Of a DNA stretch of 64,000 nt, positions 37,816 to 62,088 are shown one piece after another (the stretch's first letter is position 1; the number at the start of each line of letters is the position of its first letter). Below the pieces are notes generated by a model, which did no database searches, had not been told where the DNA came from, and worked only from the letters and a program-made list of their open reading frames with translations. This DNA comes from Polytrichum commune (Eukaryota > Streptophyta > Polytrichopsida > Polytrichales > Polytrichaceae). A program made the translations under genes and the position numbers. The stretch lies in NCBI GenBank assembly GCA_950295325.1, contig OX485804.1:21266001-21330000 (forward strand). The letters run 5' to 3'.

Positions 37816-37819
37816 AATC

Positions 37820-38783: not shown

Positions 38784-38805
38784 CCCACGGGTGAACACCC
38801 GTGGG
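38784..38805. repeat. Hairpin repeat copy (AA centre)
   Basis: Perfect 10-bp arms CCCACGGGTG and CACCCGTGGG. It lies between the FCP1-like unit and the long minus-strand gene, in a probable intron or intergenic gap. Confidence 0.95.
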
Positions 38806-38886
38806 CACAATATTAAAAAACCTTTACATAAATAATACTCGAGAGATAACAAATTGTATGGAAATTGAAAAGTATACACAGGTGGT

Positions 38887-38908
38887 CCCACGGGTGTTCA
38901 CCTGTGGG
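38887..38908. repeat. Hairpin repeat copy (TT centre)
   Basis: Right arm CACCTGTGGG has one change. The flanks GT and AC extend the dyad to 26 bp. Confidence 0.9.
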
Positions 38909-40388
38909 ACCAATTGCATTCAAATAACACTATATATGATACCTTGAGCTTGGCTTAGGGGGGGATCCCCAGCATGTGGAGGGTCGTCATGAGAACTCCG
39001 TGGGATGACAATCCGTTCTGCCGCAACCAACACCTGTTGCAAAGACACTTTTAGAAATCTTGACGACTTTGCTTTCAAGATGAACACAATATTGAATTGG
39101 GAAGGAAGTATGTAGTACCATTTCGGACGATGCCGGTTGACCCTCAGCATACCGGTCGACATGAGGGCTTGAGGACTCCGCAACTGCAACATTGACTTCC
39201 TTCCTTGGAGACTCTGGCACTCCACTAATGTCAATGATCTCCAACGTCGAGTCCACAACACTGCCGGCTTGAGCGGCCGAGGACCCCGCGAATTGACCTC
39301 GTTCTTCACGATGTTTCGGAGCTTCGAACGCTGTCCATCTCTTTCTCATTTTCTTTAATGCAGCGGCATGAAGAATATGTTTCACCTTCACTGCTGCACA
39401 AAACGCTGGTGTGGAGAGATAAGCGAACATCTTGTGATAGTTGTACGACTTGTACAAATGCGCAAGATTCAATCGCACGTTCTCGGGCACATCTACCAAG
39501 TATTTGTCCACAAACGGGGCAAAATGCACCTTGTCCTTCCCCTCTGATTCCTTGCCCATGTCAGGTCTCTCAGCAAACATCGGGTGAGAGTCATCAACAA
39601 AGTTGAGTTTCACTCTGTTGTACCCGGGCTTTCCATAATCTTCATCCTCGGAATCATCTGTCATGTAGTCAGCAAACGTCCCCCGAACCCGATGTGGAAC
39701 TCGATCTCTGACCTTCACCCTCACGTCTAGTTCTACGCATCTCTCGGGCACATCGTCATCATTATCCAAGCATATGACTTCGGTTCGAATAACCTCCTCT
39801 GCTTCATTGGATGGTGCCGCTACAGTAGGCTCTTCTGCAACCACAACATCAGGGGAACCACGGTTTGATCGCCCATGGCCTAGCACCTCGAGAACGGCAG
39901 CGGCAACGTCCTCCACAGGTGAGCTGACGTTTAAATCTGTGCTTGTCCCTTCAACATGCACAGCTTCAGACATGATTGCATCCCGCGGAACATCCTCCAC
40001 ATCCGCTACTTGGCCAGATTCAACCTCGCGACAAAGACCAGATTGCTCCGTTGCCTCCGAAGACCGCAAGTTGGCACCAACTCTAGGGGGACGTAGAGAT
40101 GACCTTCCCCTTCGAGGAGCTCTCATTTTCTTCCTTGCAGTTGGTTTCGCTCCAGACCTTGCAGGAGGATTAGCTGACTGCAGACGCTCATCCTCCTCAG
40201 ATTCTTCCATAGGTTGAACATCTAGTTGTTCTTGACTTCGTCTAGATGCCTCAAATGGTACAAACCCGCGGCCGGGTGTAGATGGGATCCCAGACGAGAA
40301 AGATGCCACAGTGTCATGGACACTGTGCACGGCTTATGGTCCTTCAACTTCCTCTTGCCGCTCTTCCTCACCCTCACCCTCCCCCTCC

Positions 40389-40410
40389 CCCACGGGTGAA
40401 CACCCGTGGG
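40389..40410. repeat. Hairpin repeat copy inside the acidic-tract region
   Basis: Perfect arms with AA centre. Unspliced, it reads through as coding (PHGCSPVG) on the minus strand. A possible 93-nt intron (40323-40415) would remove it together with a TAA. Confidence 0.95.
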
Positions 40411-41059
40411 GAAACTCCTCCGGGGACATGGCTTCCGCAGACGCCGCCGCCATGGCCGATGCCTTGAAATTGAAGGCCTCCTCCTCCGCCTCTGCCATGG
40501 CCTCCGCCAGTACATCGTCCATGGCCACCTCCTCGTCCTCCTCGTCCTCCTCCTCTTCGTCTTCGTCGGCCTTTTCTTCCTCCTCTGGAGACTCCCCTAG
40601 AACAACAACTGGGTCATCTTCCTCCTCCACGTCTTCCTCCTCCTCCTCTTCCTCATCTACCTCCTCTTCATGTGTGTCATTCCCACGCTTTCTTCGAATC
40701 TCGCGCTCAATGATGGAATCCACATCGATACGCCCTTCTTCCTCTTCCATATCCACGGCAGCGACATTTCCCTCTTCATTCCACCTTTGTAGGCTCCAGT
40801 CAACTGCGGAAACCATTTTCGTCTTCGCCACCTCTAGCATCTCTACCGGCACAATATTCACCACCTTCATACCCAAGGCCTGCAAAAACCAAGGAATGAG
40901 AAAAAGACTTCTCAGTCAAATTAGTCTACATCCAAAAGCGAAAAGAGAATCAATAAACCAATAGTCCCAACTTGTTGATTGTCAACCAACTAATTGTCAG
41001 GAAAGCTATCGAGCAGGTGGCTAGCAACCAGGTGGATATAAATCACGTGGATGTCTAGG

Positions 41060-41081
41060 CCCACGGGTGTTCACCTGTGGG
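41060..41081. repeat. Hairpin repeat copy in the 307-nt intron
   Basis: TT centre, one arm change (CACCTGTGGG). GG and CC flanks extend it to 26 bp. An outer CAACCAGGT / AACCTGGTT pair at about 41028 and 41088 encloses it. It lies wholly inside the intron 40880-41186. Confidence 0.95.
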
Positions 41082-42521
41082 CCTCCCAACCTGGTTCATG
41101 GCTAGGTTATCCAATGCACCATCCAAACCAGGAATAGTACTCTGAAATTCAAGAACCACTTAGGGGAAAAGATGCTCATTACTTACATGAGCCACTATGT
41201 GCGCCTTATTGCCTCCACAAATATTGAGGAAAAAAGACCCCTCAAGACATGAAGGCTTGATGATATCTATGTAGGTCTGCATCCTCAACTCCCCCTTGAA
41301 TAAAGACTTGACCTCCTCATTGGAATACGCCATTTTCACTGAATAACGTTTATATCGTCCCGGGTCATGGACGTCCAACATCTTCCGGCCTCCACAGAGC
41401 CGCACAGCCACCTCCGAACTTGACTCGCCCCTATTGTTAAAAATGCAAGTTGTAACCCGAAGAGCATTTGATTTGAAGAAGCAATCGCGAGATGCAATTT
41501 TCTCCTCTTTAGTGCCATGGTATAATGCGTCACAAAATCTGATGTTGCTCGGCAGGTGCGCCTTCAGTACATTGTGAATGAAATGCCGATCCGGATATTC
41601 CGAAATCACGGTCCACAATTGGGGGGAGTTTAAAAGGCCTGGAAAATCACGACGAAGACCTTGCAGAGTGGAATCCATACACTCCTTCACACGCCCCCCA
41701 GTGCCTATTCCCGCCTGGACTCCGGGGAGAAACCTTGTGTCCATGTACGCGTGCAGGACTGGTGCAAGCACTGTCCCACCACTGAAGTTGTAGTTGTTGT
41801 CAATAGACAACACGACATGCTCAGGTGTAACCTCGGTGTTATGTGTACCTAATATGTTCTTCACTCATTCTCTAAACCGGTCCGGAATAGGTACTCTCTT
41901 CCTTGTGGGGTTCATAGTGCCAAGAAGGTACTCCGCTCCAAGTCGTTCTCGCTGGAGTTTACCAAACTTATGTGCATACTTCCATACTTTCCAACAATCA
42001 CGATCAATAGTCTCTTTCTGATCGACATGAACAATGTACAATGGAGTCGGGTCTAGACACTGTGTCATCGCGATATAAGTTTCATTCTTCTTTTTCCTAT
42101 TCATCGCCCAATCGCGCACAGTCTTCAAGGTATGTCGAGGGTGCTCCTCTCCATCTCTGGTGGTGAGGATTTGATTCGCTGCCATGTCGAGCTCCATCTC
42201 TGTCAAGCCCCGAAATTGTTTCAGGTCGTTCTTGACCACCTTCTTCGACTTAAACCCCTTTATCTCTTTTATAAGAGCTCCGGTCTTCGGGTCTACATAG
42301 TCACCACTCTCGTAATCCTTGAATATCCGCTTCCACTTCCTCCATATGTCATCGCTCAATACAGGCAAGACGTGCTCCATGATCAGGTTGGTTTCCTTCT
42401 CCACGCGGAACGTCCACATGACGCACGTAATGAATGCATGTATCAAACACCGGCAATGTATCAATCTCTATAAAAAAAAACCTTCATGTATTTCTATCAA
42501 TCACCAACAACATGATAGTCT

Positions 42522-42543
42522 CCCACGGGTGAACACCCGTGGG
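42522..42543. repeat. Hairpin repeat copy in the 82-nt intron
   Basis: Perfect arms, AA centre, CT and AG flanks. It fills a quarter of the intron 42468-42549 and starts six bases from the donor GTGACT on the gene strand. Confidence 0.95.
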
Positions 42544-44202
42544 AGTCACAGAAATGAGAAATTCAAAAGTCACAGGTTTGAAATATATCTTCCACTTCTT
42601 AAAAGCTTCCGTGTTGTTGGCCTTCTCGCGTACAGTTCGGTCAGGTCTTCCTTGCCTAATCCAAGTCTTCCTAGCGTGCTGAATGCACTCCGTAAATGAC
42701 GGAAAGTGCTTCCTGTATTCACTATCCAGGTTCAGAACGCCAGAGAGGTGGAACAGAGGGTCGTCATCACCTTCAGGGGCCCAGACCACATTACAAGGCC
42801 ATTTCGAGAAAAACCTCTTCACCTCATTTGTGCTGCTGGGATCATTCACATACTCCAGACATGCTGCTAACGTGTGCTGTCTATTTACCACGTGGAACGA
42901 TTTGTCCTTCACCTCCTCAAAACTGAATGGTTTAGTTTGCCTATCCGAAGGAACGATTGTCAAGAAGTTGGGATGAATCTTCGGAATGAAGGCATAGTTG
43001 AATAACCATGTCTTGATCTCCTTAAAATGCGCCTCGGATATAGGTCGGCAATTATACCCTGCATCTCCCCGCTCTATATTGTTAATATTGACATATCCAT
43101 TCACGCCTTCACCGAATATCCACACCCTTTGGTACTTGTTCTTGAACAACTCCATATCCATCAACCTGTCTCCAACCGATTTGTCTGGAGGCCCATGCAT
43201 TGATCACTTGGGAATCTTCTCGAGTTCAAGAAATGGACTATCCTCGGATGTTTTCTTCTTGCCTCTCTTGGAGACAACATCCTGGCCGGAAGTTTCAAGG
43301 ACAAGCAGTGGTTGTCCTTCATCGGGTCTCGTCTTCTTCCTAGACGAGGTGGCACGGACATCAGCAGGATCCTTCCTCTTGCCATCGCGGATTTCCTTCT
43401 TCTTCAAAGATGCTTCTAACCTCGCCGCCTTTGCCTCCTCAACTATAACCTTCACTCGTGCTAGAGCAGATTTGTAGTCCTGCTCGATCATTACTGATCT
43501 CTCCTCCACGGACTTCGTGTGCACATTGGTCTCGCAATATACTATACAATAGGTGAGGAAATCACCGTTCAATAAGCGGATGTTCTCTCCCTCATTGTTG
43601 AGCTCCTCATTCACATCCGCATATGAGAAAGTCTCCACGAGTGCTGCAACCTTGAAGTCCTTCTTCCGTTCAGACGACTTGCACATTATCAATACCCGGC
43701 TCCCATCCGCTTGAATGTCCAATACATGTTTTACCTTCATGTACTTTCTCCATGTGGAATTGGGCCCAGTCCTCGTGTAAAGCGAGAGCACCGTTGTCTC
43801 TCCGAAACCACTATACTGCATGAACCATTGCAAATCTGGGCCAAAAACTTCAACATCGTGATTCACCCGTCTGCCCACACCTCCTGATACTGCAGAAGAC
43901 AATGCACGTGTTAGTACTCAGCATAGCCCAATATTATCACGGATTCTATAACTCAGATAACATTGACGTGCACATAGGTATTGTGGTTATACCTTTACGG
44001 GCTGTTTGCTTTGTTCTTGCCATCTCAATTCAAATGAGAGAACACTTCGACACCTCTATGTACCTGAATGAAACACCAACTGTCTATCACATGTTTATGT
44101 CTAAAACCTTCAAATGTTTACAAAGACACACCAAATATGTCTACATAAAAAATCCAAAAGACATTTATCAAACAAAATCTCCCACCCAGGTGAGTGCAAA
44201 GG

Positions 44203-44358
44203 CTCACGGGTGAACACCCGTGGGCACTCCTAACCAGGTGAGTGCAAAGGCCCACGGGTGAACACCCGTGGGCACTCCTAACCAGGTGAGTGCAAAGGCC
44301 CACGGGTGAACACCCGTGGGCACTTTCAACCAGATGAGGGGAGAGGCCCACGGGAGGG
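44203..44358. repeat. Hairpin array 1: four copies at 48-bp period
   Basis: Copies at 44203 (CTCACGGGTG variant), 44251, 44299 and a truncated one at 44347. The spacers are near identical: CACTCCTAACCAG then GTGAGTGCAAAGG. All have the AA centre. The array lies in intron 1 of the minus-strand gene. Confidence 0.97.
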
Positions 44359-44854
44359 CTGATTTTTCACAAAGTTTTAGCTCGTCCACGTCCAAAAACC
44401 TTGAATTGAAAGGCAAAAAAAATCTCAACCCGTCCCGAAACTCGTTGCACTTGGAAACAATAGGATCTTGACAAATTATGCCTTCAATGTTCGTCAGTTT
44501 TTTGTCTTTTTCTACCGATTCTGAGCTTTTCAGTCCACCCCATTCTAAATTGTGTGGTTGAAAAATTAATGTATGCAGGTGAATCAAGCACTTCAAGATT
44601 GATATTTTGATTGGGTTTTACTGGGTTGATTGCATTATGCTTATATTCACATGTCATATATGACATAATGTAACAGATATTTAGACCATCTTTCTAGGAA
44701 AATGTATCAAAAGAATTTTCATTTTTAGAACCCGTCCACAGTGATATCAAGCACGTCCAAAAACCGGTTCATTTTCTACGAACACGTCCACTGACCTTTT
44801 GCTTTATGAACATGTCCCTAGACATGTTAGGGACCTTGTGAAGAATCACCACTG

Positions 44855-45113
44855 CCCACGGGTGTTCACCCGTGGGACTCTCCACCTGGTGAGTGCAAAT
44901 GCCCACGGGTGAACACCCGTGGGCACATTCAACCAGATGGGGGAGAGGCCCACGGGTGAACACCCGTGGGCACATTCAACCAGATGGGGGGAGAGGCCCA
45001 CGGGTGTTCACCCGTGGGCCTCTCCACCTGGTGAGTGCAAAAGCCCACAGGTGAACACCCGTGGGCACATTCAACCATATGAGGGGAGAGTCCCACGGGT
45101 GTTCACCCGTGGG
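44855..45113. repeat. Hairpin array 2: six copies at 47-48-bp period, spacers in both orientations
   Basis: Copies start at 44855 (TT), 44902 (AA), 44949 (AA), 44997 (TT), 45044 (AA, one change) and 45092 (TT). Spacers are of two kinds, CACATTCAACCAGATG-GGGAGAGG and CCTCTCCACCTGGTGAGTGC, which are approximate reverse complements. The copy at 44997 has flanks GGAGAGGC and GCCTCTCC, making a 36-bp perfect-arm hairpin. It lies in intron 1 of the minus-strand gene. Confidence 0.97.
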
Positions 45114-45211
45114 CACTTCAAATATCCACTTCCAGATAACCGCTTTCACACTAACAGAAAAAACTGGGATTTATGTAATGGACACTCACCAGGGTTCTTT
45201 GGTCGGACCAT

Positions 45212-46000
45212 GTCAAGATTCTTTCAACACGAATGTGGTTTCCTGCACAAAACAAAACACAAGAGCATTTGTTTCAAACTATGCCTACATGTGCAATACA
45301 TTCATACTCTCAAACATCTCAACAGGTAAATTCTGGTCTCACATTTTTCTTGCATTCTGGTCTCACATTTTTATGAACATAACCTCTTGTCATTCATCTT
45401 GCATTATGATTTGAGCATTCTTCTCACATTTCAATCAACTCTTCACACCCAAGCATCACACAATTCACATGCAAATCTCTAGTATTTATGGGTTTGAAAT
45501 TCTTCAAGCAATTCAAACCCTAATGCACCAGAAATTTAGTATCTTATGCAACAAGTGTCAAGACATTCCAAACATTCATCATTTAGCTCTGATTCACCAC
45601 TGCCAGACAACTTATAGCCACAAGCATTACAATGCAAGCAAGAGGAAGAATGAAATTGAAAGAAAAAGCAAAAGAGTGAAAGAGAGTACAAAACATTGAA
45701 AGAGTTCAGAAACTTACAAGCTTGTGGGTTCTCAAATCTTCATGATTGGAACTTCCCTCCACTTGCTTCAGGGTCGCCTTCCTCTTCTCCACATCTCACC
45801 ACTACCACATGCTGGATTGAGCAAGAAACAACTATGCTCACCAAGAAACTATCACATATTCCAAGAAAATGCACACTGAATCTATTCCAGGGTTTTCTTG
45901 AGAAGAGAATCAAGACAAGGAGTACAATAATTGAATGAAGAGAAGAGAATGAAGAGAAGCAAAGCAAAGCAAAGCAAGTTCAGAATTGTGGGAGAAGAGT
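45212..46000 (-). promoter_or_regulatory. Probable 5' UTR and leader intron of the long minus-strand gene
   Basis: An acceptor (TTTTGTGCAG) ends at 45243 on the minus strand, 31 nt before the ATG, and a strong donor GTAAGT lies at 45717-45712, suggesting a 475-nt leader intron. Upstream, 45730-46000 is a pyrimidine-rich minus-strand leader (repeated CTTTG and CTTCTCTTCATT). A convincing TATA box was not identified. Confidence 0.45.
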
Positions 46001-46254
46001 TTTGCAACAACATTCCAGAAATGTGGAGAGTGGTGAAGGAAAGAGAGAAAGAATTGGGAGAGGAGAATGAGAGAGAGGGTGCGACATGTTGCCATAATGA
46101 CGAGCGGGTGGAAGTCTAATGACACATAATGCCTCATTAGTACGAAGGGACATGATGGAGAAAATCTCGGGACGCGAAGAGATATGCGATTTGGCGGCTA
46201 AAGTACGTTTTGAGGAGGGATGGGCGGTATGATGGTATTAGGAGGTAGCGATTA

Positions 46255-46780
46255 AAAATTATTGGTACTTTGTAAGGTTCGCCCTATTGGTATGATAATT
46301 ATTAGTACTTAGTAAGATATCTAAGTATTAGTGAGATAATTATTAATACTTAGTAAGATATCTAAGTATTAGTAAGACAATTATTAGTAAGATAACTCAT
46401 ATTAGTAATTATTAGTAATTATCAGTACTTAGTAAGATAACTCATATTAGTAAGTTCATTATTAGTACTTATTAAGATAACTCATATTAGTATGATTGAT
46501 ATTATTTTTATTGTTAGTAAATTGTCATATTCACTCTATTTTTAATATTAGTAAAAATAATTTATAGCTATTAATAGTAATTACCAGTAATAGTAACTAA
46601 TAATAACTAATAGTGACTAGTAGTGAATAATAGTGAATGCTAGTGCTTCATAGGTCATTATAGTCATTAATAATGTTTAATAGTGATTGATAATTATGAC
46701 TTACTAATGGGTGACTAGTAGTGATTAATAGTAATAATAATAATCACTTTCAATCGATAAATGGTAATAGTATTGATAAT
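46255..46780. repeat. Degenerate ATTAGTA tandem repeat
   Basis: Imperfect units of ATTATTAGTACTTAGTAAGA and shorter TTAGTAAT words, grading into AATAGTGA words towards 46700. Confidence 0.85.
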
Positions 46781-47909
46781 GCTTAAAATAGATTCATATT
46801 ATAACATAGATTCCATACTTTAACATTCTACTCTGTAACATAGCTTCCTATTATAACATACCAAAGTCAATTGCACATTCTCATAATATGCGTGTAAGAT
46901 GCTCAATCGCGCTTGACATCAAGCATAGCTATGATTTCCAATTCCTTATTGATGAAGTCATGAGCATCCATAATAGGCCCACTTTCACCATAGCCCATGA
47001 ACTCAAGTTCAATTGTTCTCTTGTTTTCTCTTGGACTATGAACCATTAGAGTTCCAAGAATTCAAAATTTTAAATATAACATATATTTATCATCCTTATC
47101 ATCCTTATCATCATCGCCTTATACCATATATATTGAGAGGATGACAAAGGAGGTGGCCAACGAGTGGGCCACATCAAGCACCACATGAATCTCGAGCAAT
47201 ATTAAGATTGCATCTCCATAACCATAACTCATGTTTGCTCGAATGTTGTGTGGCAAAGTATTGCAATCATCTACTAGAGGTTTTGGCTAAGTTAGGGCCG
47301 GTTTACACCATGGACCATGAAGTCGGAGCATGGAAGATGGCATTTTTTTTCCATGGTCCAATTTCTTAAAAAAACAATATCCAAAGCCTTTGGGCCCCTC
47401 ACTATGTGTAAATTGAATGTGGACCAAAAAACGAATGTGCTGATTTTCTAAATATATGCCCAAAAGAGCACTTTTGAAAAGAAAAAGAAAAAGAAATCAA
47501 AATTGACAATTCTCTTGTCTTCTCTTGTCTTCATCTTCTCTCCCCCCCAAAAAAAACCATTAAAAAAGTTATTATAACAACATTTCTTTGCCATGGGCCA
47601 TTGCCTTTTTCTATGGAGAGCACCTCTTTTGCCTCTCCCACCGCAAAACCCGTTGGACCATGTCAATGGATAATTTAGGCCTTAAAATATGTCCTTTGGG
47701 GACCTCGAACTCCATGATCACCTTGACATTTTTTTTTCCTTGTTGTAAACCGAAGTGGTCCCGGGACGAGTTCAACAACCAATCACAAGCTTTACAGGGC
47801 CTTGAATGACTTCATGGTCCATGGTGTAAACAACCCCTAAATTAGGTGCAGTTTGACAGAGGTTTCCAAACCTCTCCCTTGTTTGTAGTTTATCTTCGGT
47901 TTACAATAA
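46781..47909. other. Gene-free stretch
   Basis: No recognisable gene. A dyad pairs 47310-47350 (CCATGGACCATG-type) with 47805-47825 (TCATGGTCCATGGTGTAAAC), so 47300-47830 is probably another small TIR element. Confidence 0.4.
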
Positions 47910-48224
47910 CTACACTAAAAAGGATATTTAGTGTTCAGTACATTGAATATGAACGCATACACTAAACATCAGTAACCCTATGAAAATAAATAACATTAAA
48001 TATAAACAAAAACACTAAATATCAACTATGATAATATGTGGAAGTTACAAGTTTGAATTTAGTGTTAGTAAGGCTATGAAAAAAAAGGAAATAACAATGA
48101 TAAAAGGAGAAATCCAACATATCTTCTAACACTAATTGTCAAAAAATTGAAAATTAGTGTTGAGCAAAGTAGGGTGGTATCAACATTAAATATAATCAAA
48201 CCCTAAATATCCTACTTAGTGTAG
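47910..48224. mobile_element. MITE with CTACACTAAAA terminal inverted repeats
   Basis: The left end CTACACTAAAAAGGATATTT is mirrored by CCTAAATATCCTACTTAGTG then TAG at the right. Same family as 23420-23636. No coding capacity. Confidence 0.65.
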
Positions 48225-51200
48225 TGCCCTGATAGTGTACACAAGGTGTTGGTTGTCTTCCTTGATCGTGTGAATGTTAGAGCAAGTGGAGGGGCAATAT
48301 ATGTTTCTACATGGATCCCCGGTCCTAGACGCAAATTAGTGTGTAGTAATGCTTGTATCAATAAAGCCAGACTTCATGCTGACCTGTCTTCTTTATGAAA
48401 TTTCTTTTCTATTTTTTATTGGCTTTGTCTGCAAGACAAAGACTATGCATCAACTTCTTCGTTTCAAGAGCAAATTTCCTAACCACTTTGCGTTCACATT
48501 TGGACATTACTTATTCTTGTTATTTTTGGCCCACTTTATTCAATGTGGATGTTAATTATAGTTTATATATATATAAAAACTATAATTGCTCCCTAAAAGG
48601 CATTGAAAGAAAACTAGTTAATAAGTATAGTTATTTCGGTAGTTGTTGATTATTTATTTTGAAAATTTCGGGTGATAAATGAATAGCTTCAATCCTTGAC
48701 CCGCATTTGAGAAGGAGGTGCACAAAATTCAAGAAATGTTTGGTATAGTAAGTAACCATGGATTGGCACGAGCAAAATGGACATCTACAATTGTAGTCTT
48801 TCATAGTAAAGGACAGAGCCTCACGGTTCTACCGTTTTCTTGTTTTTTTTGCAAATAGATGAGCTAAAATATATTACAAATTGATAGAACTCCCGATATA
48901 CACCACAACCCTTCCTTCATTCTAATTCACACTTTGGAAAGCCAATGCAATCTTTGGTTGTGAAAGCCATTCCAAAATAATAAGTTAGTTGAGGTTGCGA
49001 AGACTTTGTCCTATACAATAATCTCAACTTGAGCAACACTCCAAAATGGGCACGAGTTCGATGACACACCACCGAGTGGTCCACATACAAGGTCTCTCAC
49101 TAACTTGACTTATTTGTAAGCTTGTTGATGTAACCAAGGGTTGACCATTGCTCACATCTTGCTTTGGTTTCTGCACTAGTATGGGCAAAAGAGGCACAAT
49201 TTGTCATCTTCCAAGGCAAAAATGTTGGGGCAATTAATGCGGTGGAACCTCTACAAGAATAAGTGGCCATTGCACCAAGAATCGCATAGTAATGATCATT
49301 TAAGAGATGTAATTAGGCAAACTTGCCGTGCCCATTATGGTGTTTATTAGTGTCATGTGCACTATTTGCAAAGGAACTACATCAAAATGTTCACAATCTT
49401 AGAGATGACATGTTCGTTGATTGCCAGAATGACATTAGTTGTCAATGTAAGTGATAATTTATGTATGAAGGAAAAACTTTTGATCTTTTTGACCTTCAGG
49501 TGCATTCACGGTTGGGGTACTACTTTTGGGTGTCTAACGGTTAAAGGACTAATTAAAATTAGATAACTTTACATAGTTGGTGTGCTTAGATTTGTATTGT
49601 GGAGCATATTTTGAATCATACCTACATTTAATATTCCATATTGAGTGCACCGACAAAGTTAATTTACAAGGAATAGGGTTATCAAAGATATCATTTTGAT
49701 TCCTTAACGGACATCCATGGGTGTTGTCAAAATTGTTGACCTTAGGATCAATGAATGACAAGGACAACAAAAATTAATTGAAATGATCCCAATTTTTTTT
49801 CCTCACAATTATCATTCGATTGTGTACCAATAGAACTAAAAATGTATTGCATACCAATTGTATAGCTTTACATATGACACCAAACATGGCCAACAATACA
49901 CAACAACATGGCTACATGAAAAAGGAACGTTTAGTATTAGAATTGAACATATATATATATATATATATATGGATGGATACATGAAACTTACACCAAGGTA
50001 CTAGGATGGAAAACAGGTAATAATTCACCTCCGATGTTCACTTCAATAATGAAATTGTTATTGATGTGGCCCAAACAAGTCATATGACCTCTTTACAAGT
50101 CCTTTGACCTATCTACTCATTTCATAAAGGATTTATCTATTATTGGTGATTATTTAATAATAAGTAATATCTTTCTTGACAAGTCCTATGACCTATCTAC
50201 TTATCTATTTAAATTTTATTGATCAAATAATAGTAAATCATAATAAACGCCGAGATCCAATGCAACATAGTCCTTAATTTCTTTGTCCCAAAAGTAGTAC
50301 CCCAATCGTGAATAGCCCCTCCTAACAAATAAAACCATCTTTAATAATTCTCTTAAGGTAAAAAAAAGACCTCCAATTACTTCATATATTTCAGATTCAC
50401 TCTGAGACAATATTATTCTTTCATAAAAATAGAAGATTGAGCCAATTGATCCACGTTGGATGAATTTACCTAGATGCCGTGTAGCTCAGGTTGTACTCTC
50501 AAACTTATCTAGCATCGTCATGGAGGCTCTTGACATATTCTTCCCCAATTCGATATACAATAGAATAGTGTGAGCGTTTCCAACACATTTGTGAGACCCA
50601 TCTTGTTTCCATAAAAGTATCAATATTGACATGGACCATGACAATGGAGACATGTTCACTCTCTAATAATGTTGAGGGATCCCGAGGCTTAGTATAACCA
50701 CTCCAAAGTAGTGACAATTGAAACCCCTACCATTCTTATCCGTTGGATTGATCCTTTAAGCATGTAGATTGCTTCAAAGTGTCACAATGGAGTAATCTAT
50801 TGTTGTTATTCAAGTGATACATTTATCATCTCATGAACCATGAGTTGATCATTCCTCCATCACTTTTGAGTAGTTGATTTGTTAGTATTATTATGGAATG
50901 TCATACATGAGGGGCCCATTGGTCATTGGCCATTGGTGGGGGCAAATCAAGATGGTTGTTTGCTATCACTACCTATATCTCTTCATATGTGAACGCTACA
51001 TGAGGTATAACTTAGAGCCATGTCATGATGATGGATGAGTTCATCCATTGACCTTCTCATGTTAGCAACTTGTGATGCAACATTGTCATGGATGATTGCT
51101 ATATTGTCTACTGTGATATAGTGATAACGTACATGTTCATATTAAACGGTTTTGTTTATTCCCACTACATTCCCACTACATTCCCAGTGTCATGTGCCGA

Positions 51201-51359
51201 CACTTACGGTGTTGTTGTTAATCTGCAATATAACATAGCATACCCTTCAAAATAGGGGTTTCCATTACTGTGGGTTTTTCATCTGCATATTTGGATGAAA
51301 ATCCAATGTAAGGCAAGGAAAGTACAATAATATTACAGTGGGCCACACTAAAAATGAAC
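48225..51359. other. Gene-free stretch
   Basis: Short frames only. A TTGGGGTACTACTTTTGGG word at about 49510 recurs inverted near 50290-50310, marking an inverted repeat pair. A TA run lies at 49950-49970. Confidence 0.4.
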
Positions 51360-51855: not shown

Positions 51856-54530
51856 ATGGGCGGACGTTAAATACCCCCTCACGAACTTTTGGAGGTATCT
51901 AATCTGGGTTGGGGCAATCTTGTAGCGAAAATTTCTAAACCCAACCAAAAATTGCAGTCTTGAAGGCCGCTTGACTACAAATCCCATATTGAGTGCACTA
52001 AAATCCGCTTGACTTACCATAAATAACTTATATTTGTCATTCTAATGATGGATTAGTGCAAGTGTTTATAAGAGAATAAGGTATAAATAAATGATATGTT
52101 ATTTGGAATTAGACTCGTGGGACAACGTTATGGATGGGGTATATATTACTCAGAAAATCATAAGTTTCTGACTATGGCCTATCTGAATTATTTAATAATT
52201 TATCCTCATCACATATTGTATTATCTTTCAAATCACATAGTGTATAACCGTTACTTTAAAATAAATATAATTATATGATACTAATACTAATACTAATACT
52301 ATTATGCAAATACTAACAATAACAATACTAAGACTAATATTGAATTGAGTTTTTTAGTTCACCAATTTATCATAAGGTGATATATATTATTGTGCCATAT
52401 TACAAATGTTTGAACAATCACACATGTGCAAAATAAATGAATTATGAACAAAAAGATGTCTATGACAACACTTCATAATTATATATTGCACACATTGATA
52501 TCTTACGATATTTATCAAAATAACCATGTGAAATTCAAAGCCACATCATGGCCTTGGAAACATCTCATGGGAGGTTAGAAAATAGGCTTAGAGCATCCAA
52601 GGCCACATCATTGCCCCTTGCCAACTAATTAATATTTATAAAATAACTATGAGGGAGAAAGTAGGTCTTACATGCCAACTCGGAGGTATTTCACTAAAGT
52701 AAGCTCCATCCGAGCTTCTTGATGGACTCATCCGATTTTTGTTACCGGATGACTTTACTTGAGTGCCACGAATCCCCGGCCCTTTCAAGTGGGCTTGTAC
52801 GGTTAAGGTATTTGTTGACTTTCATATTTACGGCCTCGAATGTCCTTTCCAAAGTGCACATCTAAGGGTACTCATGTAAGTATAACCATGCTATCACATA
52901 GAGCCTTATTATAACCTAACATAGTCAATCGCACACTCTCAAAATATGCTTGTCATTGTAGGGTCGATAGTGCACATGGATTGACAACCTAAGTACCAAA
53001 GTACTAAATTTGAGCAACAACAAATCCCACATGGATGCAACATCTATGGCTACACGGTCCAAAATTGAGCTTTTATATTCTCCTTAAAGGTGATTTCAAA
53101 AATACTTTATGGCAAGTCCACAAGTCATACCCATGGATTGGAGCATGACATTATGGAAAGGTTACTTAAAGGTTACTCAAAGGTATTTGACCCCGATTTT
53201 AAAGAGTAGTTTAAGTGCATACATGCACATGAAGGTTTTACAGGGGCATGGGCATATGGTTTGCATGGGTGATTGTGGTTGGGTTCATGCAAGATATGAA
53301 CCCAAAATGATTCATACGGACTAGTGTAATGGGTCAGGATGGCACATGCCCAAACTAATAAGGTGTGTGGGGCTCATTGATAGTTGTAGTTTGAGGAGGG
53401 AAACTTGACTAGCTCTATATTCAAGCACATGGAAATTGATTTTCATTTGAGCGGAGAAACCTTGGTTTTTATATACATTGTTAGTGTGAACCATAATTTG
53501 TTGTATTTACATTGAGAGTTCATGATGCCATGTTCTTACTATTCAAACCTTGCCCAAAGTTTTCTTAATTTATGGAGATTTTGTTTTTCATTTTTCTAGC
53601 ATCCCATGATGCAAAATCAATCAGTCTAGTCAATCAACAACTAAAGTGCGTCAGTACAAGGATGGCCACGTTTCAACTTGTGTTTTGGGCAACGAGCCGA
53701 ATCTGCTACCCCCCCCCCCCCCAACCACCATTGCCACTCCACATGGGAGTGCCCAGTCCAAAAGATGCTTGAAGATACCGGCAAAACCTTCACCAACGTC
53801 AGAGAACTCTATTTTGTTTCACCAGAACGATTGGTACATGAAAGTGTGCCCTAACTTGGGCCAGACTAATTTGGGGTCAATTCAACTAAATAGGGTTTCC
53901 AATAAACTTTGAAAAATAACCTCCTTACTACATACTAGTTTAAAGTTTCATTGTTGGATGAATGAGAGTAATATGCTCGTATGCGATAATCCCATTTCGT
54001 TGGCCAAAAAAACATTGATATGTATATAGGGCCTCACATTAGAAGCCCAAGCCCTTGAGGATGTAAATGCTATCACAAATTCCCCATGCGTAGGCAAAGC
54101 CTTCCTTTTGGAAGCCGGGCTATGTTGGGTGCGACTATCTATTTGGGGCATCCAAGTTTGGGAAGAGGGGGTTGACATTGCAACCATTGTATCTCATTGC
54201 ATCTATTAAGGGGTTGTATGTGTTTGTTTTGTATTGTTGTTTCAATGTATGTGTTGTGGCATAAGGTTTAGGTTAAGGAGTATATGTCCTCTAGCTGCAT
54301 TGGGAGTTCCAATCACACACGTGGTGTCCAAACTAAGTCTACCCAAACATGTGCATTATCCAAGGACATGTCAAATGATTGGAGTCACGTTTTTCTACAG
54401 CCTTGTCGATCGGTCAGCCTTAAGCCATCATTTTGACATGGGATCTCAAAACGGTCATCCAAACGGGATAAGTGGTGGGCCCATAAGTATATAGCGTAAA
54501 ACCTAGGAAGTGCAGCTAGAAATGTAGTGG
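51856..54530. other. Gene-free stretch
   Basis: A TAATAC(T) run is at about 52278-52305 and a C run at 53710-53722. I see no supportable gene; frames of 60-80 codons lack any family signature. Confidence 0.4.
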
Positions 54531-54800
54531 ACACATACCGGGGGGGGGGGTTGTGATGTATTGGAGTAGAAATATATGTGCAAAAAATTGAGAGGGTATA
54601 TGGGGACGTAAAATGAACAAAATGATTTAGAATAATATAGGGTGTCAAAAATGGCGTTGGACATCTTTAAAGTACTATAGGGTTTGAAATAATAGGTAAC
54701 TTGGAAATATAAGTAATGCAAGGCCCTATCCTACTAACCCGGTGCTGAAAATGCTAAGGAAATAAATAACCTTAAACCCTAAACCCTAAACCCTAAACCG
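54531..54800. mobile_element. MITE family A, partial copy with telomere-like motif
   Basis: Starts with a G run (54541-54550) like the intact copy at 25190, shares AAAGTACTATAGGGTTTGAA, and ends in three CCCTAAA units (about 54776-54798), as does the copy at 51360. Confidence 0.6.
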
Positions 54801-54889
54801 GTTTATAAATGGATCAACATCTCTAGCGTAGTGCTATAAATTTGATGATTTTCCCCAGTGTAAATAGGGCATTGACGCCCGAGTTGGCC

Positions 54890-54891
<2 letters not shown>

Positions 54892-54926
<35 letters not shown>

Positions 54927-54955
54927 CATACATACATATAGACACACACACACAT
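54892..54955. repeat. TA / CATA / CA microsatellite
   Basis: Alternating TA, then ACATACATA, then CACACA. Confidence 0.9.
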
Positions 54956-55397
54956 ATTTGTGGTCGCGGAACTCTATGGTATGTTGCTACATGTCCAACA
55001 TCATGATTGATAAGAATGACAAGTGATGCTAAAAGATGAAAAATGGGTTGTGCAAATCAAAGAGGTGCCATGAAAATGGACTCTCTCTCCCTCTCTCTCT
55101 CTCTCTTTGGTGGCATTTTGCATGTTTCAGTCAATACATGCAAATTCATTTTGTAACATGTGGCGCTTTCAAGTCAAAGATGGATAAACCCTAGGCTTGA
55201 GCTATTGGGAGAAGGGTCGAATTGTCAAATTATGTATAATGCCATAGTAGGAGTCTAGGTAGGTATTGAGTCATCACATCCTATATCATACTATTAATGG
55301 GGGTGGGCGAGGCAAGGTTGAGGCAAGTTGACAAGGTTGGGCATGGTCACGAATCATTGGTGCTAAGGTTGAGGTCACATGAGAAAGTTATTAAATG

Positions 55398-55600
55398 GGC
55401 ATCTTGGATAACTTAACTTGATAAAACCACCACAAGTTATTGTGAACCGTTGATGATGAGGTTGAGGTTGTTTGGGAAGAGTGTTCAACAGTCATCTTGG
55501 ATAACTTAACTTGAAAAAACTGTTGTGAACCATCGGGGTTTAGGTTGAGTTTGAGGTTAAGGTTGAGATTGTTTGGGAAAGGTGGTCCACTTAACTTCAT
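55398..55600. repeat. ~93-bp tandem duplication
   Basis: The segment beginning ATCTTGGATAACTTAACTTG occurs at about 55400 and 55493, each followed by a TTGTGAACC and a GGTTGAGG-TTGTTTGGGA block. A weaker third copy is near 55638. Confidence 0.7.
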
Positions 55601-56464
55601 AATTATAAATTCAAGGTTTTATGTTTTGATGTAATAATTCTCAATGGTCATCTTCGATAACTTAAGTACATGATTGTGACCTTAGGGTTTTGATGTTTAA
55701 TGCTTCAAAGTCGTGAACAAAACCAAGAGGTTTATAAAGGAAAGTGACACATACTCCTTTGGTAAGATGAATCCACAAAAGTGCAAACTCAAATTCATGA
55801 TTTAACAAAGCAATTTAGCGATAGGTTCTTCCAATTTCATTGGAAATATGAACCTGGTTCATGGTCCAAGTTCATTATTTAAACAACCAATTTCAGTACA
55901 TGTTGTGAACAATTTCATGATTTGGTACCCATATTCAAAACTTCACAAAATCAATTTTAGGAAATGCATAACTCTATTTCACAAAGAACATTACATCATG
56001 TATAGGATTATCCTAGTAAACAAATTGCTCCCTATTCCGCACAACTATACACTACACTCCAAAAACATTATGCGCTTTGCTCATGCTACCAACACTCTTC
56101 CCATAATCAAACCCCCAACTACACTACGTACACTCTCAAACCCATGAGATTACGCACTCCAACTATGTTGGGTATGAGTTGTTTGCTTTGATGTACAATA
56201 ATCAAAGACCAAAGGAAAAATGACATTGCTTGCTTCTAACTCCAAGGTAGTGTAATGAAGACCAAAGAAAATTTGACATCAAGGCTAGAGGCTTCCAAGT
56301 AAATACAAAACAATGAGAAGGCAAAGAATGCGAAATGAGGCGGCGAGAATTTGAGAAATAAAAAAACCATAAAGTGTGAACTTGATATGGAAGATTCACA
56401 AAGTTGCTAAACATAAATGTCCACAATGGGGTGGAGCGAGGCAAGTTGACAAGGCTAGGAAAGT
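55601..56464. other. Gene-free stretch
   Basis: No supportable gene. A 99-codon frame at 55848-56147 has no family signature. Confidence 0.4.
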
Positions 56465-56472
56465 ATAAGTAT

Positions 56473-56827
56473 CTTGGGGGGGGGGGGGCGGGGCAGTGTG
56501 TTAAAAAGTTAAGGATATAGGTGTGAACAACCACTATTTTATAGGGGGGGTATTACTTTCAATTCTATTATTTTTCTCACAATGATGCTATCATTATGTA
56601 AATTTCTACTTTGGGTTAATAGAAAAATGGCTTGCATTACTTATAATTCCAAATTACCTATTATTCCATACCCTATAGTACTTTAAAGATGTCAAGTGTC
56701 ATGGTTGATACCCTATATTACTCTTAACTCCATTTATAATTTTTAGCCCCCATGTTTTTAAAATACCCTATCATTTGTTCGCACGTATATTGCTACTCCA
56801 ACCAATGACTACCCCCCCCCCCCCGAG
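56473..56827 (-). mobile_element. hAT-type MITE (family A), inverted relative to 25190-25530
   Basis: A 355-bp element with ends CTTGGGGG and CCCCCGAG, long G and C runs at the two ends, and nearly the same interior as 25190-25530 read inversely. Flanks ATAAGTAT (56465-56472) and AGAAGTAT (56828-56835) match at 7 of 8 bases, fitting a worn 8-bp target duplication. Confidence 0.8.
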
Positions 56828-56835
56828 AGAAGTAT

Positions 56836-57849
56836 ATGAAACTTTTCCGAAGTTGCAACACAATGGGCCACAATGGGCCACAATGCTAGTTGCTCTAAAA
56901 GGAGCAGGCTAGTGTTGAGCTTCAAACCTCGAATTTGGGAGCCCTTATTCCCAAATTAGACTGCAAACATGAAAGTTAATAGTAGCTTTGACCGGGTTAT
57001 CCTCGCACCTTGCCCACAAAATAGGCATCCTATTCACAATTATAAAATATAAAAGAACTATAACTCTGGTGAGAGAATCCCATGTGGTTGTTAACTCTTG
57101 CGGATGAAACAATACCTAACCTTCATACTATTCATTTTGCAAGGGTGCCCATCATAAGTGGTGGATAATTCCTACATTCCCCACACTATGGGTGATCACC
57201 TAAGTGATGAGTATGTATGGTAGGCACCAAGACATTGTATTGGCATTTGTTTGTGCTATCCGTTTGAGTTATGTTGGGCCACCTTTTGCATGGGATAAAG
57301 TGCTTCTTCAATTACATGTGATGACCTTGACTCCCCCTTGACTACAAAATACAACCTCAAGATTGTGATAATGTGGGACCGCAAGTGACATGCTACACTT
57401 TGTTTTTAACAACTACATAGTCACCATTAAATTTAAGAGTTGGCAACTCCATGACCCTATTTGTGTTAGAGGTTCTATTCACTTGCTTCTCCCTTGCTTG
57501 TCATTTGTCACCATCACAATGTCGCACACAATGGACCTGTTATGTGTGCACATGTCCTTATGTAATTTTGGCATGAGTATGCTTGGTAGTGGTATGAGGT
57601 GTATGCAAAGGTTACACAATGATCATTGGTACCGCAAAGACTCTCCTTCGCCTTGTAACAAATTTTCACTCCATGTACATACGATGTAGAACCCCACTAC
57701 CGAAGGTCATCATTATTCAATATGAGGAAGGTTAGAACGTGATTAGCTAATAGCGATAGGAATTGGAGGGAATGACGTCTATGTACTTACGAATTTGGAG
57801 GGAATGCCTTGTACTTCCTCATGTGAAGTTGATGGCCATGCTCACGACC
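56836..57849. other. Spacer upstream of the DUF7869 gene
   Basis: No gene recognised. The promoter of the downstream gene lies at its right end. Confidence 0.4.
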
Positions 57850-57858
57850 TATATAAAG
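57850..57858 (+). promoter_or_regulatory. TATA box of the DUF7869-type gene
   Basis: TATATAAAG, 70 nt upstream of the ATG at 57928 (context ACCATGG), with a pyrimidine-rich likely start region (TTTCTTTCTCC) about 30 nt downstream. Confidence 0.6.
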
Positions 57859-57927
57859 GCCACCATTTGGAGGGTCATTTCTTTCTCCTCATTTGAGTCC
57901 ACCCCCCTTCACCCTTGAGGAGCAACC

Positions 57928-60900
57928 ATGGAGAGCGTGCCTCACATGAGTGAAGAGGTTGGTTTTATAACCCCAATGTGCATCCACTTTCCCACGGGTG
58001 CACCCGTGACAACACTCTGGCCGTACGCCTCCTGTACGGCCAGTCTGCCACGGGTGTTCACCCGTGGGAGACGCTGGCACCCGGTTTGGGGCCCCCACGG
58101 GTGTTCACCCGTGGGAGCTTATGGTTTTTATTTCGGTTATCCTAGCATATGTCAGAATAGAAGTTATCCATATGCTCATGTGTGTGACAAACTTTATAGT
58201 AGTAGATGTCAGCATGGTAGCCTCCCACGGGTGAACACCTGTGGGAGAATCCGGCACCAGCATGGAAGCCCCCACGGGTGTTCACTCGTGGCAGTTCATG
58301 ATTTGTATTTTAGTTCTCCCTACATATGTGTGGTTATAAGATAGGCATGTATCACGTGTGTGACATACTCAATAGTTGTATATGCAATTCTGCTTATTTG
58401 TAAATTTCCTGCTGAGTATGTGAAATATGTTGTCAATGGGTAATTGGTACATATTATTACGAGTTGGGAGTTTCGTGATGCATTATGATAAATGATGTCG
58501 ATGATATTCGTTAAACTGGAATGTTGACACTATCCTGAATGGCAACTATTTCGCTAGCACTTGGGCTAGCAGATGTGACACCTACATGCATAGTAATAAT
58601 TGTACACAAGTAAGTGTTAGGGGTGATAGTTTTGGTGTTTGGGCTTTGTGGAAACTGGTAATAAGGGTCATTCTCCCAATGGGGATATGATAAGTAACAC
58701 ATACTTCACTTGAGTTGTGTGAAGTGAGGTGTAGAGCGTACCCCTATATGAATGTAAATATTCTGCTGAGATTTCAATGTTGTCCCCCACGGGTGAACAC
58801 CCGTGAGCTTCTGGTCAATGTGTGTTGACTTACTTTGATATCGATGTTCAGATTCCACATTACATTGGACTGTCGAGGACGGACTTGAAGGGGAAGGCCG
58901 TTGTGCTCTTTGATGATGAGGGCCATGCTTTGTGTGATGGATTGATTTGCAACACAAATCCGTTGGATTGTGTTGACAATAGCATCCTAGGGGCTGAGGA
59001 TGTTGGAGTTATTATCTTGAACCCAACTGACAATGTTATTTCGCGGGATTGGGAGAATACGCTGCACCGATGGCCACTTTCACTCACCAAATTTGAAGGA
59101 CATACATTAGCAGAAATATTGTTGGTCCATCATAATGCGACCCGCGAAGTTCAAAGTCATCGGCGCTTGCTTGGAAAACGCCAATACAACACTGTGAGGA
59201 TGTGTGCACCTCGGCCACCTGGGAAGAAAATTTGGGGAGCCACTGAGGAGCATGCGCGGATGTTATCAGCGGTGGATTGTTGTTCCGAGCATTGTTGCCA
59301 GGTATTCCCAAGGCCTTTGTTGATGAGTATTCGGGAACACTACTTCGCATTGCCATTCAATGCTCGGAAGCTCATAGCCCTGTCGGTGTTCCAATCGATC
59401 CAGAAACATGAGCACAACGGACGCGAAATGGTGCAGTTGGAAGGGAGAACAATATGCACTCGAGCATGGATGAACATCTATATGATATCAAGGGCACAAT
59501 ATAATAGGAACAAGGCTGAAAGCTTGATGGGGGTTAGATCTCGAGATCATGGAAATACAGGAACTAGAAAACCACGGACGAATGCAGTGCAAGCACGAGC
59601 CACCCTTGGAGTATTGGTTGAGGGTAGGGCGGACGCCATGCCCCATATGACTCGGACTCTTCCAAGTGGTGAGAAGATAGGGACGGAGATGCTCCCTGTG
59701 GGAACAACGTGGTGCAACCTATTGCAGGAAGTGAACAACTTGGACGGAGACCTAGGGTACACGCCTATCTCTACGTCCACCTTCAGCCGCCTACATCAAC
59801 AACATTTCAAGCAGTATGTTATAAAGAGCCCCGGCGACAACTTCTCGCGTTGTGGAACTTGTGCAGCATTCAAGGATTTGTTGCGAATACACACAAAGAA
59901 CACAGCTGGTCACTTGGCCATCTCGAATGCTAGCCTTCGTCATCTAACATTGCAGGAGGCTCATAGAAACAGTTACTATAAAGATAGGATTTTGTCAAAG
60001 TATGCTCCCAATGAGGTGCTTTGTATAATCCATGACAAAATGGATTATGGGAAAACGGCTCTTCCCGTTTTCGCGCACAAAAACAAACGTGTTGACAAAT
60101 ACGAGCGATTCCCCATATCCATTGCGGGGATGATTGCACATGGTCACTCAGATGTGAATTATGCGCATTATGTCCTTGATATGTACCCATCCGATGCCAA
60201 CTTCACTATCACCTCGATGATGAAGTTGCTTTGTCAACTTGAGGTAGAACCTGTTTGCTCTAGTAGACACATTCCGATTTCGTCCATAGGTGATCCTTTA
60301 CACGACGCATTGGTGGTTGGTGTGGAGAAGTGTTCAGGAGTACTTCCCTTGCCACCGCCCGCAAGTATTCCTCCTACAGGTTTGCCACCCCTCCTCCTTG
60401 TTCAAATGGACAATTGTGCGAAGGACAACAAATCAAAATACAACATGTTGTTTTGGTCAGCTTTGACTGCAAAGGGAATTTTTCGGGAAGTCAGGGTGTC
60501 TTTCCTTATTGTTGGACATACGCATGAGGATGTGGATGCAATGTTTGGGAGGTTTGGACAAAGGCTGAAGATTGAGGATTGCCATACACTCCCAGACCTC
60601 ATGGCATCGTTCATGGCTGCTGGGGAACCCACTATTGTCCCGTCCTTAATCCACGAGGTTGCAGATTTCAAGGAATGGGTGAAGGGATACTACAATGAGT
60701 ATGGTCAAGATCGACTTATTGGGCATTCCAAGGCGCACCAATTCCGTTTTTATGTAGATCCTCAAGGAGTGCCATTGATGCAGTACAAAGTGTATTGTAC
60801 AGATCCAAGTTGGGTGCCTGATGGAGGAATTGCTCTTTGGAAGGTGGACCCTATCACAAAGAAGACCATGGTCCCAACAGGTTAGTGGGTCCCTTGTTTG

Positions 60901-61801
60901 TATTGCTTTGGAAGTGCACTAGAAAATACATGGTGTGAAGTATGTGGCCCACGGGTGATCACCCGTGGGCAGTTAGTCCGTGGTATTGCTCCGAGCTCAT
61001 TGTATGTTTGTTTTTGTAGGGTGCCCCCGTCCCGTTCCAAAAAGGGAGATGAAAGATTCCGTGAACATAAAGCTTGGGGTGCAAGGTTTTATTAAGTATT
61101 GGAAGGATACGGCAGATCAAGATAGTTCGGGTCAATATATGGAGTCCATTGCACCAACAATTTTATATTGGGAGAATGTGCTTGCGGCTATGGATCAACC
61201 TTTACTCCCAACTCCATCTGAACTTAGCGAGCCATTCTGGCCAGCTACACGGTACTCCATTGCACCAACCCTCCATGTGGATAATGTGCATCTACTTGAG
61301 GAAAACATCATTGATTATGCTTACGTGGGGCCAGCTAGTTCTCGACCTGTTGAGACCTTCCGTCCCGGCGCACATATACAGGTTGGCCATTATGTGTTAC
61401 TACGTCCTAGTGAGGATTGTCCTAATCCAGTGTGGATGGGACGAGTGATTTCTGAGCCGAATTTGGCACATATCGGTCCTAATCCTCGTTCCATTGAGAT
61501 TGTCTATTATGTACCGGTCCTTGGCCAAAGGAACAAGAAGACCTTAGATGAACGTTATGAGGAATGGGACACGGCAAAATCTTTTCGATGGACGAGGCTC
61601 AAGGACTATGCACCACAACATCAATCCCTAGATTGTGTTGTGGCATCATGGGCAAGACAAAGGAATGCGTCCGATGACAATGTTCTCATCCCAGCTCGGC
61701 AAATTCTTTTCGCAAAGGATAATTTAGATCGATGCACTAGAGGTGAGAAAATGACTGATGGAGATACTTTCGAGGATGGGGTACCAACAGAAGACCTCTA
61801 G
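57928..61801 (+). CDS. DUF7869-type (DDE/RNase H-like) transposon protein, three exons, open
   Basis: Exon 1 57928-57957 (MESVPHMSEE), intron 57958-58851 (GTTGGT, TTCAG), exon 2 58852-60880, intron 60881-61019 (GTTAGT, TTGTAG), exon 3 61020-61801. Phases agree and the total is 946 codons plus TAG. Without the first splice the frame would begin at 58822. The middle part holds a Cys-rich segment (CCSEHCCQVFPRPL, then ARKLIALSVF). The C-terminal core carries IIHDKMDYGKTALPVF (~403), VQMDNCAKDNKSKYN (~528) and FLIVGHTHEDVDAMFGRF (~562). These acidic sites in this order are the signature of DUF7869, a family found in plant and animal transposon-like genes and probably an RNase H-fold nuclease. Exon 3 encodes a tail with VGHYVLLRPSED and WMGRVISEP, reminiscent of a BAH or chromo-like reader. 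No stop or frameshift is seen, so the copy may be recent or active. Hairpin repeats fill both introns. Confidence 0.8.
57991..58292. repeat. Hairpin repeat cluster in intron 1 of the DUF7869 gene
   Basis: Copies at 57991-58008 (centre deleted), 58047-58068, 58094-58115, 58224-58245 (one arm change) and 58271-58292 (two changes). Between the first two lies another dyad, GGCCGTACG / CGTACGGCC. The copies at 58094 and 58271 are each followed by a related ~92-bp segment (58116-58208 and 58293-58384, both with GTGTGTGACA), so a 177-bp unit has been tandemly duplicated. Confidence 0.93.
58786..58807. repeat. Hairpin repeat copy near the 3' end of intron 1
   Basis: AA centre; the last positions read CCGTGAG. 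It lies 44 nt upstream of the acceptor at 58850-58851. Confidence 0.9.
60948..60969. repeat. Hairpin repeat copy in the 139-nt intron (AT centre)
   Basis: The centre is AT, making the 22 bp a perfect palindrome; G and C flanks extend it to 24. It lies in the middle of intron 60881-61019. Confidence 0.97.
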
Positions 61802-61942
61802 ATTAAAGTTGCCTTGCTCATTCCTCGGTATCTGCGGGTGGACTCTCATGGGTGGGCTAGATGGTTGAGACCATCTAGCATGTTTGGAGCTCAATTTTAA
61901 TTTTGTGAGCATTAATTAGAGAGCCGTAGACATTGACATTTG

Positions 61943-62088
61943 TCCCACGGATGTTCAAACTACCACTTTTAAAGGCATCTTTTTTTGTGAATTTTCATGT
62001 GCATTGTCATATTAGCCAACATGTTTAATATTCCGCAGTCGTCCAATGTCCTCCAATGTTTAATAGTCCACGGGTGTTCACCCATGGA
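61943..62088. repeat. Two worn hairpin copies downstream of the DUF7869 gene
   Basis: 61943 keeps CCCACGGATGTTCA only. 62067-62088 reads TCCACGGGTG, TT, CACCCATGGA, where the outermost pair is changed on both sides (T and A) and still pairs. Confidence 0.75.

Follow-up and report, generated by a model that had tools for sequence, protein, structure and literature searches.

The window, a stretch of 64,000 nucleotides of Polytrichum commune contig OX485804.1, carries a copy of a giant DNA transposon, hereafter family A, and every copy of a 22-bp palindrome found in the window falls within this one element, between 37,803 and 62,295. The features are as follows, with the strand given for those that have one; REF is the reference copy at C2:68,579,974-68,604,941 (24,968 bp).

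37803..62295: family A giant DNA transposon, window copy; 9 of 9 other copies match window 37,803 to 62,295
37803..38565, minus strand: exon of an NLI-interacting-factor-like (FCP1/SCP type) phosphatase, truncated and with one stop in the window copy
38784..38908: two palindromes, at 38,784 and 38,887, between the phosphatase-like and acidic-protein genes
38987..40885, minus strand: acidic low-complexity protein, two ORFs in the window copy and one 633-aa ORF in REF
40389..40410: palindrome within the acidic-protein ORF, the sole clear coding-region site
41060..41081: palindrome in the gap separating the acidic-protein gene from the final exon of the DGQH gene
41160..42464, minus strand: further putative exons of the DGQH gene, from ORFs and comparison
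42484..43902, minus strand: first exon of the DGQH-motif protein, with one stop in the window copy, where the motif reads NRQH
42522..42543: palindrome in a probable DGQH-gene intron, with GT...AG borders by eye in REF
44203..45113: two arrays at a spacing of 47-48 bp, with 9 palindromes and one half-site in all, upstream of the left gene cluster
57991..58292: array of 4 palindromes plus a half-site, on the upstream side of the transposase gene
58786..58807: palindrome immediately upstream of the transposase ORF
58822..60880, plus strand: transposase exon 1, DUF7869 (PF25273, E 2.3e-46), from ORF and Pfam
60948..60969: palindrome in the putative 139-bp transposase intron
61020..61801, plus strand: putative transposase exon 2, C-terminal part, from ORF and comparison with related copies
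62067..62088: degenerate subterminal palindrome
62273..62295, minus strand: right terminal inverted repeat ATGGGGATATTAACTAAAATGAG; 92 genome matches with at most one mismatch, 0 for reversed controls

The palindrome reads CCCACGGGTG-NN-CACCCGTGGG. Between 38,784 and 62,088 we counted 21 sites within 3 mismatches of this sequence, including 12 exact ones, and three additional half-copies at 44,347, 57,991 and 61,944; at the same threshold there are no sites in window positions 1-38,783 or 62,089-64,000, and 100 dinucleotide shuffles gave a mean and a maximum of 0. The first-pass annotation had described a 22-bp hairpin present about 24 times and confined to 38.8-62.1 kb, and on both points it was right, the total being about 24, but its division into 22 full or near-full copies and 2 remnants gives way to 21 sites and 3 half-copies. 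Its further statement that the surrounding sequence lacks conservation applies to the dispersed copies and not to the arrays at 44,179-44,354 and 44,854-45,121, which are tandem repeats with a 47-48-bp unit and conserved flanks. The single intronic and intergenic sites have no flanking sequence in common with the arrays, so the palindrome is not one locally amplified tandem repeat.

Across the assembly (407.8 Mb, 64 contigs), a search with both arms returned 644 exact sites, against 0 for the reversed-pattern control. Among the 50 of these 644 that were listed, all on contig C1, 39 are inside A elements or a fragment of A, the other 11 are in a second element family, the C type, and none is free of an element; the occurrence of the palindrome is therefore not uniform.

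Comparison between copies defines the complete element. The window copy is without its left 1.79 kb, and in the three copies read leftward the sequence continues over this distance, with more palindromes, to a terminus ATGGGGATATTAACTAAAATGAG (with one mismatch in one copy) that forms an inverted repeat with the right end. The terminal inverted repeats are 23 bp long, and a 4-bp target duplication flanks 12 of the 13 copies read (3/3 and 9/10), the combination of inverted termini and fixed-length duplication that characterizes TIR cut-and-paste elements. Transposition appears to have been recent, because the last 1,414 bp are identical in three copies on contigs C1, C2 and C5 and the largest difference among ten copies is 1.4%. 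At the left end of the window copy, judged by eye, 37,434 to approximately 37,654 is a repeat of sequence from the right flank (starting at 62,296), followed by an AT-rich tandem repeat that runs into the element. This replacement of the end by a right-flank repeat and a tandem repeat (37434-37802; 62296-62515) resembles aborted gap repair. The approximately 12 kb between the arrays (REF 8,600-20,670; window ~45,200-57,900) is free of palindromes even at up to 5 mismatches and poorly conserved between subfamilies, and may be variable cargo. Short runs of a plant telomere-like 7-bp unit, AACCCTA, also occur mid-element, at window 51508-51533 and 54768-54799.

The transposase matches DUF7869 at 158.3 bits, against a curated cut-off of 26. 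Its two exons would be separated by a 139-bp GT-AG intron (60,881-61,019), and in a copy of the distant family B a single ORF runs through the same point. The domain appears abundant in this genome: of 1,491 DUF7869 candidates, 150 were scored, and all 150 exceed the cut-off. The left cluster, comprising the DGQH protein, the acidic protein and the phosphatase, lies on the opposite strand to the transposase, with several frames interrupted in the window copy. The first-exon frame of the DGQH gene is open in REF (482 aa) and in several other copies; the phosphatase frame is likewise open in REF, matching PF03031 at E 4.6e-11 (E 8.9e-16 in distant family B). An FCP1/SCP-like (NIF) phosphatase aboard transposons thus recurs in family A (REF 1732-2553), in distant family B and on a metagenome-bin contig, L078.

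The DGQH motif reads [DN]GQH[ST] in 11 of 13 aligned members of this protein group. Matches to known profiles stay below threshold, with TIGR03187 at E 0.47 and GmrSD_N at E 0.06, each in one of the 13 members, and a PDB sequence search with the DGQH alignment gave nothing credible (best E 0.11), as did one with the transposase. The predicted DGQH structure was unusable, with a pLDDT of 40.5 from a single sequence and 32.6 from three, and the viral contigs searched held no confirmed relative of the DGQH protein or the transposase and no match to the L078 palindrome. The proteins evolve at different rates: in tblastn comparison of REF with a subfamily at 87%, the transposase, the least changed of those compared, is 88% identical, the phosphatase 79%, the first exon of the DGQH gene, which diverges faster, 68%, and the acidic protein 51%.

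Within the element, the palindromes occupy particular places. Two divergent gene clusters in REF have arrays upstream of them, at 8,227-8,592 and 20,673-20,944, and the single sites are found between genes and in two GT-AG introns. Coding sequence makes up 35% of the element, yet 21 of the 22 REF sites lie outside it, the exception being the one in the acidic-protein ORF; the bias has a binomial P of 0.001, or 0.016 with neighbours merged into 15 clusters, for coding limits set by hand from the tblastn comparison and with the site at REF 6,546 counted as intronic.

These sites stay in place while the sequence around them changes. Against a subfamily at 94%, 8 of the 11 non-array REF sites are identical over 22 bp, one matches at 21/22 and one differs at the centre only; the remaining one, subterminal and degenerate in both, matches at 17/22. 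The flanks of the same sites are 57-89% identical. Against the 87% subfamily, 3 of the 11 can be aligned through their flanks, and these match at 21, 16 and 17 of 22 bases. The place of the two palindromes at 38784..38908 is kept in the 94% subfamily, with palindromes in the same gene interval in the 87% subfamily, where the place of the acidic-ORF palindrome is taken by a set of four at intervals of 54 bp.

In the 87% subfamily the motif itself has shifted to a symmetrically altered palindrome, CCCACGGGCG-NN-CGCCCGTGGG (hereafter A′), found mainly in arrays. Both symmetric changes are present in 28 of 39 sites, but together in none of the 21 REF sites and none of the 26 sites of the 94% copy. 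Nine sites in this subfamily have no neighbour within 130 bp, and of these 3 are fully and 4 half changed. Homogenisation of tandem arrays may account for much of the shift, since most of the 28 are array members and only 3 of the 9 isolated sites are fully changed. Throughout, the centre varies and the arms are fixed, most clearly in families B and G (below).

Other element families in the same genome have other palindromes. Distant family B, with a transposase approximately 40% identical, has no A palindrome; its own motif, TTTACGAACG-NN-CGTTCGTAAA, forms clusters of 26 and 23 copies at two loci. Family C, encountered through its A palindromes, has GAGGCCTCGG-NN-CCGAGGCCTC, in 33 and 29 exact copies at two loci. 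To these dozens of their own palindromes the C-type elements add a few of the A and A′ types (L043 at 1956, 4820, 4890 and 5284; L044 at 1454, 4634 and 5028), as well as a compensated variant, CTCACGGGTG-AA-CACCCGTGAG. The foreign palindromes might reflect cross-recognition between families.

For a blind test, 11 loci were picked solely by weak similarity to the DGQH protein and searched by a fixed procedure (9-bp arms, loop 0-8). The largest palindrome clusters had 5, 4, 7, 2, 9, 5, 9, 11, 10, 4 and 9 copies. None of nine control blocks reached 3: the counts were 1 or 2 in six blocks of the window and 1, 2 and 1 in three taken from outside element ends. Ten of the 11 loci (clusters of 4-11) therefore exceed every control, and one, L048, with 2 copies, has no more than the controls; shuffled versions of the blind-tested loci and of the window blocks gave 0-2. 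The motifs recovered in this way are D, GGTTCCTCTCG-NN-CGAGAGGAACC, at six loci including L048; D′, AACTTCCTCTCG-NN-CGAGAGGAAGTT; E, CTTCCACTCG-AT-CGAGTGGAAG; E′, CTTTCACTCG-AT-CGAGTGAAAG; and, again, B. In the D and E types pairing extends a few bases further on each side. Both of two loci picked by DUF7869 alone have 16 copies of their own palindrome: L056 carries G, GTTTGGGTCG-NN-CGACCCAAAC, and L057 an imperfect palindrome around GGTGAGGCATATGCCCCACC.

Exact genome counts beyond the A motif are 177 for A′, 2,909 for B, 9,231 for G and 211 for E′, with 0 for each reversed control, and the 50 listed of the 211 E′ sites form five clusters, each within approximately 12 kb of a DGQH match. With its 9,231 palindromes, the G family (L056; 502-aa ORF) makes DUF7869/G elements apparently a major component of the genome. 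Many motifs have CG beside the centre, where A has TG/CA. Array spacings differ across families (47, 48, 54, 62, 75, 78, 84, 101 and 128 bp), and a shared helical phasing of the arrays was dropped for that reason.

Among the prokaryote contigs scanned there were two with relatives of the DGQH protein, L078 and L079 (CADCWO010000243 and CADCWO010000269), both filed under an uncultured Synechococcales MAG (AVDCRST_MAG81), a label that we take to denote desert soil crust. Each has the DGQH gene followed by an acidic ORF, and L078 also has an NIF phosphatase (E 1.4e-12), in the same order as in REF. They bear 7 and 8 copies, respectively, of ATTCAGCTCG-NNN-CGAGCTGAAT or of sequences close to it, most of them near junctions between ORFs. 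We infer that these contigs are misbinned eukaryotic transposon DNA under a cyanobacterial label.

Divergence of the DGQH protein and divergence of the palindrome go together. Over 12 loci, the distance between proteins correlates with the distance between half-sites, a half-site being the 10 bp that adjoin the centre; r is 0.944, a value that 0 of 5000 permutations reached. The loci are not independent, and the C type was left out because its protein is only a fragment. The correlation supports co-descent of protein and palindrome rather than a particular reader, because any gene of the element would correlate.

On the strength of these sequence comparisons, we consider it reasonably probable that the palindromes are family-specific DNA sites of an element-encoded, probably dimeric protein that controls expression or silencing of the element, with the DGQH protein as the prime candidate. 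Fixed arms with a free centre, symmetry kept through change, dense upstream arrays and family specificity within one nucleus all point to an element-encoded DNA-binding reader. Such a protein, most likely a symmetric dimer, would read the two 10-bp arms across the free 2-bp centre; the dense arrays would be candidate docking platforms upstream of the two divergent gene clusters, with further single sites at gene junctions and in introns. Once bound, it would control the element's own transcription or shield the element from host silencing, an effect that would be restricted to the elements of each family's own protein. The DGQH-motif protein is the first candidate for this reader because it is encoded beside an array, evolves fast and has a motif in common with DndB. 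The element, its conserved and family-specific sites and their match to protein relatedness are direct observations; binding by a protein, the choice of that protein and the sense of its action, whether activation, repression or anti-silencing, are what we infer from them.

The palindromes could instead be transposase-binding sites that serve transposition, like the subterminal repeats of other DNA transposons, which we regard as unlikely. Such a role would suit the palindrome of its own type in each DUF7869 element examined, the five REF copies less than 620 bp from an end (240, 431, 614, 24504 and 24740) and the TIR, which also differs between A and the 87% subfamily. Yet four of those five subterminal copies are degenerate, the best-preserved palindromes, as much as 8.6 kb away from an end, sit in introns and upstream of genes, and the transposase changes least (88%, against 68% for the DGQH exon). 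A role as RNA hairpins in element transcripts is improbable: symmetric changes do keep the pairing and several sites are intronic or intergenic, but the arrays lie upstream of gene starts, the arm sequence is fixed in each family although any pairing arms would fold, and a 2-nt centre makes a poor RNA loop. Less probable again is recognition by a host DNA-binding or chromatin protein, for which the sites, dense and containing CpG, would be usable; families in the same nucleus have unlike arms, and 0 of the 50 listed A sites (of 644) lies outside an element. That the hairpins move or copy themselves independently, each as a unit of its own, is very improbable despite the lack of shared flanks among dispersed copies, given that 9 of the 11 non-array REF sites match at 21-22/22 at the aligned place in the 94% subfamily and that, as above, no listed A site is free of an element. 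Among the four functions suggested in the first-pass annotation, a protein-binding operator is thus the one that these comparisons appear to favour; a transcript structure or a recombination (or transposition) site suits the data less well, and the mobile hairpin is disfavoured by sites at corresponding places in REF and the 94% subfamily.

Known transposons and regulators offer partial parallels to the operator reading. CACTA/En-Spm elements, with CACTA ends, 3-bp duplications and subterminal repeats bound by TnpA, are similar in combining an element-encoded protein with a repeated short motif. Family A differs in its ATGGGGAT termini (ATGG ends), its 4-bp duplications and its sites throughout the gene regions, and the termini and duplications rule out membership. 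Helitrons have no TIR, no target duplication and one 3′ hairpin, and are ruled out by the TIRs and 4-bp duplications of family A. KDZ transposons carry accessory TET/JBP genes and make duplications of 8 bp (Zisupton, Dileera) or 7 bp (Kyakuja) (PMC12730594); family A likewise bears an accessory enzyme gene, but its transposase matches only DUF7869 in Pfam at an E threshold of 0.01 and its duplications are 4 bp, which excludes it from that group.

The promoter of DndB, a DGQHR protein, contains TACGN10CGTA, to which DndB itself binds (PMC4507180). DndB resembles the present system in its DGQH-type motif and its palindromic promoter sites, and the family B palindrome includes TACG-AACGNNCGTT-CGTA, an exact TACGN10CGTA. 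We treat this as a resemblance rather than a test because the profile matches are below threshold. DndB is a bacterial operon regulator with two promoter sites, and the similarity of the element protein to it is itself below threshold.

The closest working parallel, and on our best reading an analogy, would be the VANC/VANDAL system of Arabidopsis. VANC removes methylation, and the family-specific motifs that it binds are arrayed in upstream regions and introns (PMC5735166, PMC10398659). VANDAL elements too are DNA transposons, and their short, family-specific motifs lie in introns and upstream of genes, frequently as tandem arrays; motif and protein change together between families, and the transposase is more conserved than the DNA-binding protein. 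Family A shows the same noncoding, family-specific motif arrays diverging with an encoded protein. The site differs: VANC21 recognizes the 9-bp YAGTATTAY, arrayed in one orientation (PMC5735166), and the word palindrome does not appear in that paper, whereas the family A site is a palindrome of approximately 22 bp. The genes are also unrelated, being a DUF7869 transposase and a DGQH protein rather than DUF1985 and Mutator-type proteins; Pfam found neither of the latter in 8 window ORFs, 6 related ORFs and the 13 members of the DGQH alignment. Literature searches on DUF7869, 22-bp transposon palindromes, Polytrichum genomes and giant moss transposons, and on palindrome arrays and transposon-encoded binding proteins, returned nothing on this system among the top-ranked matches of a library that covers few subscription papers.

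This genome has ten motif types, namely A, A′, B, C, D, D′, E, E′ and G together with the imperfect palindrome of L057, and the metagenome bin has one. They pair DNA sites with candidate readers in a natural series, in which the joint change of a DNA-binding specificity and its target can be studied. A broader and more tentative possibility is a superfamily of giant plant-like transposons with a diversifying address code, in which each palindrome would be read only by its own DGQH-type regulator, families would coexist without cross-activation and some, such as the C type, might eavesdrop on or parasitise the address of another. The five motifs counted amount to more than 13,000 exact palindromes in the genome, and the operator reading would extend the VANC-type idea of private transposon control to unrelated genes. 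The readers, if confirmed, would represent new DNA-binding proteins that are sequence-specific and have long, symmetric targets.
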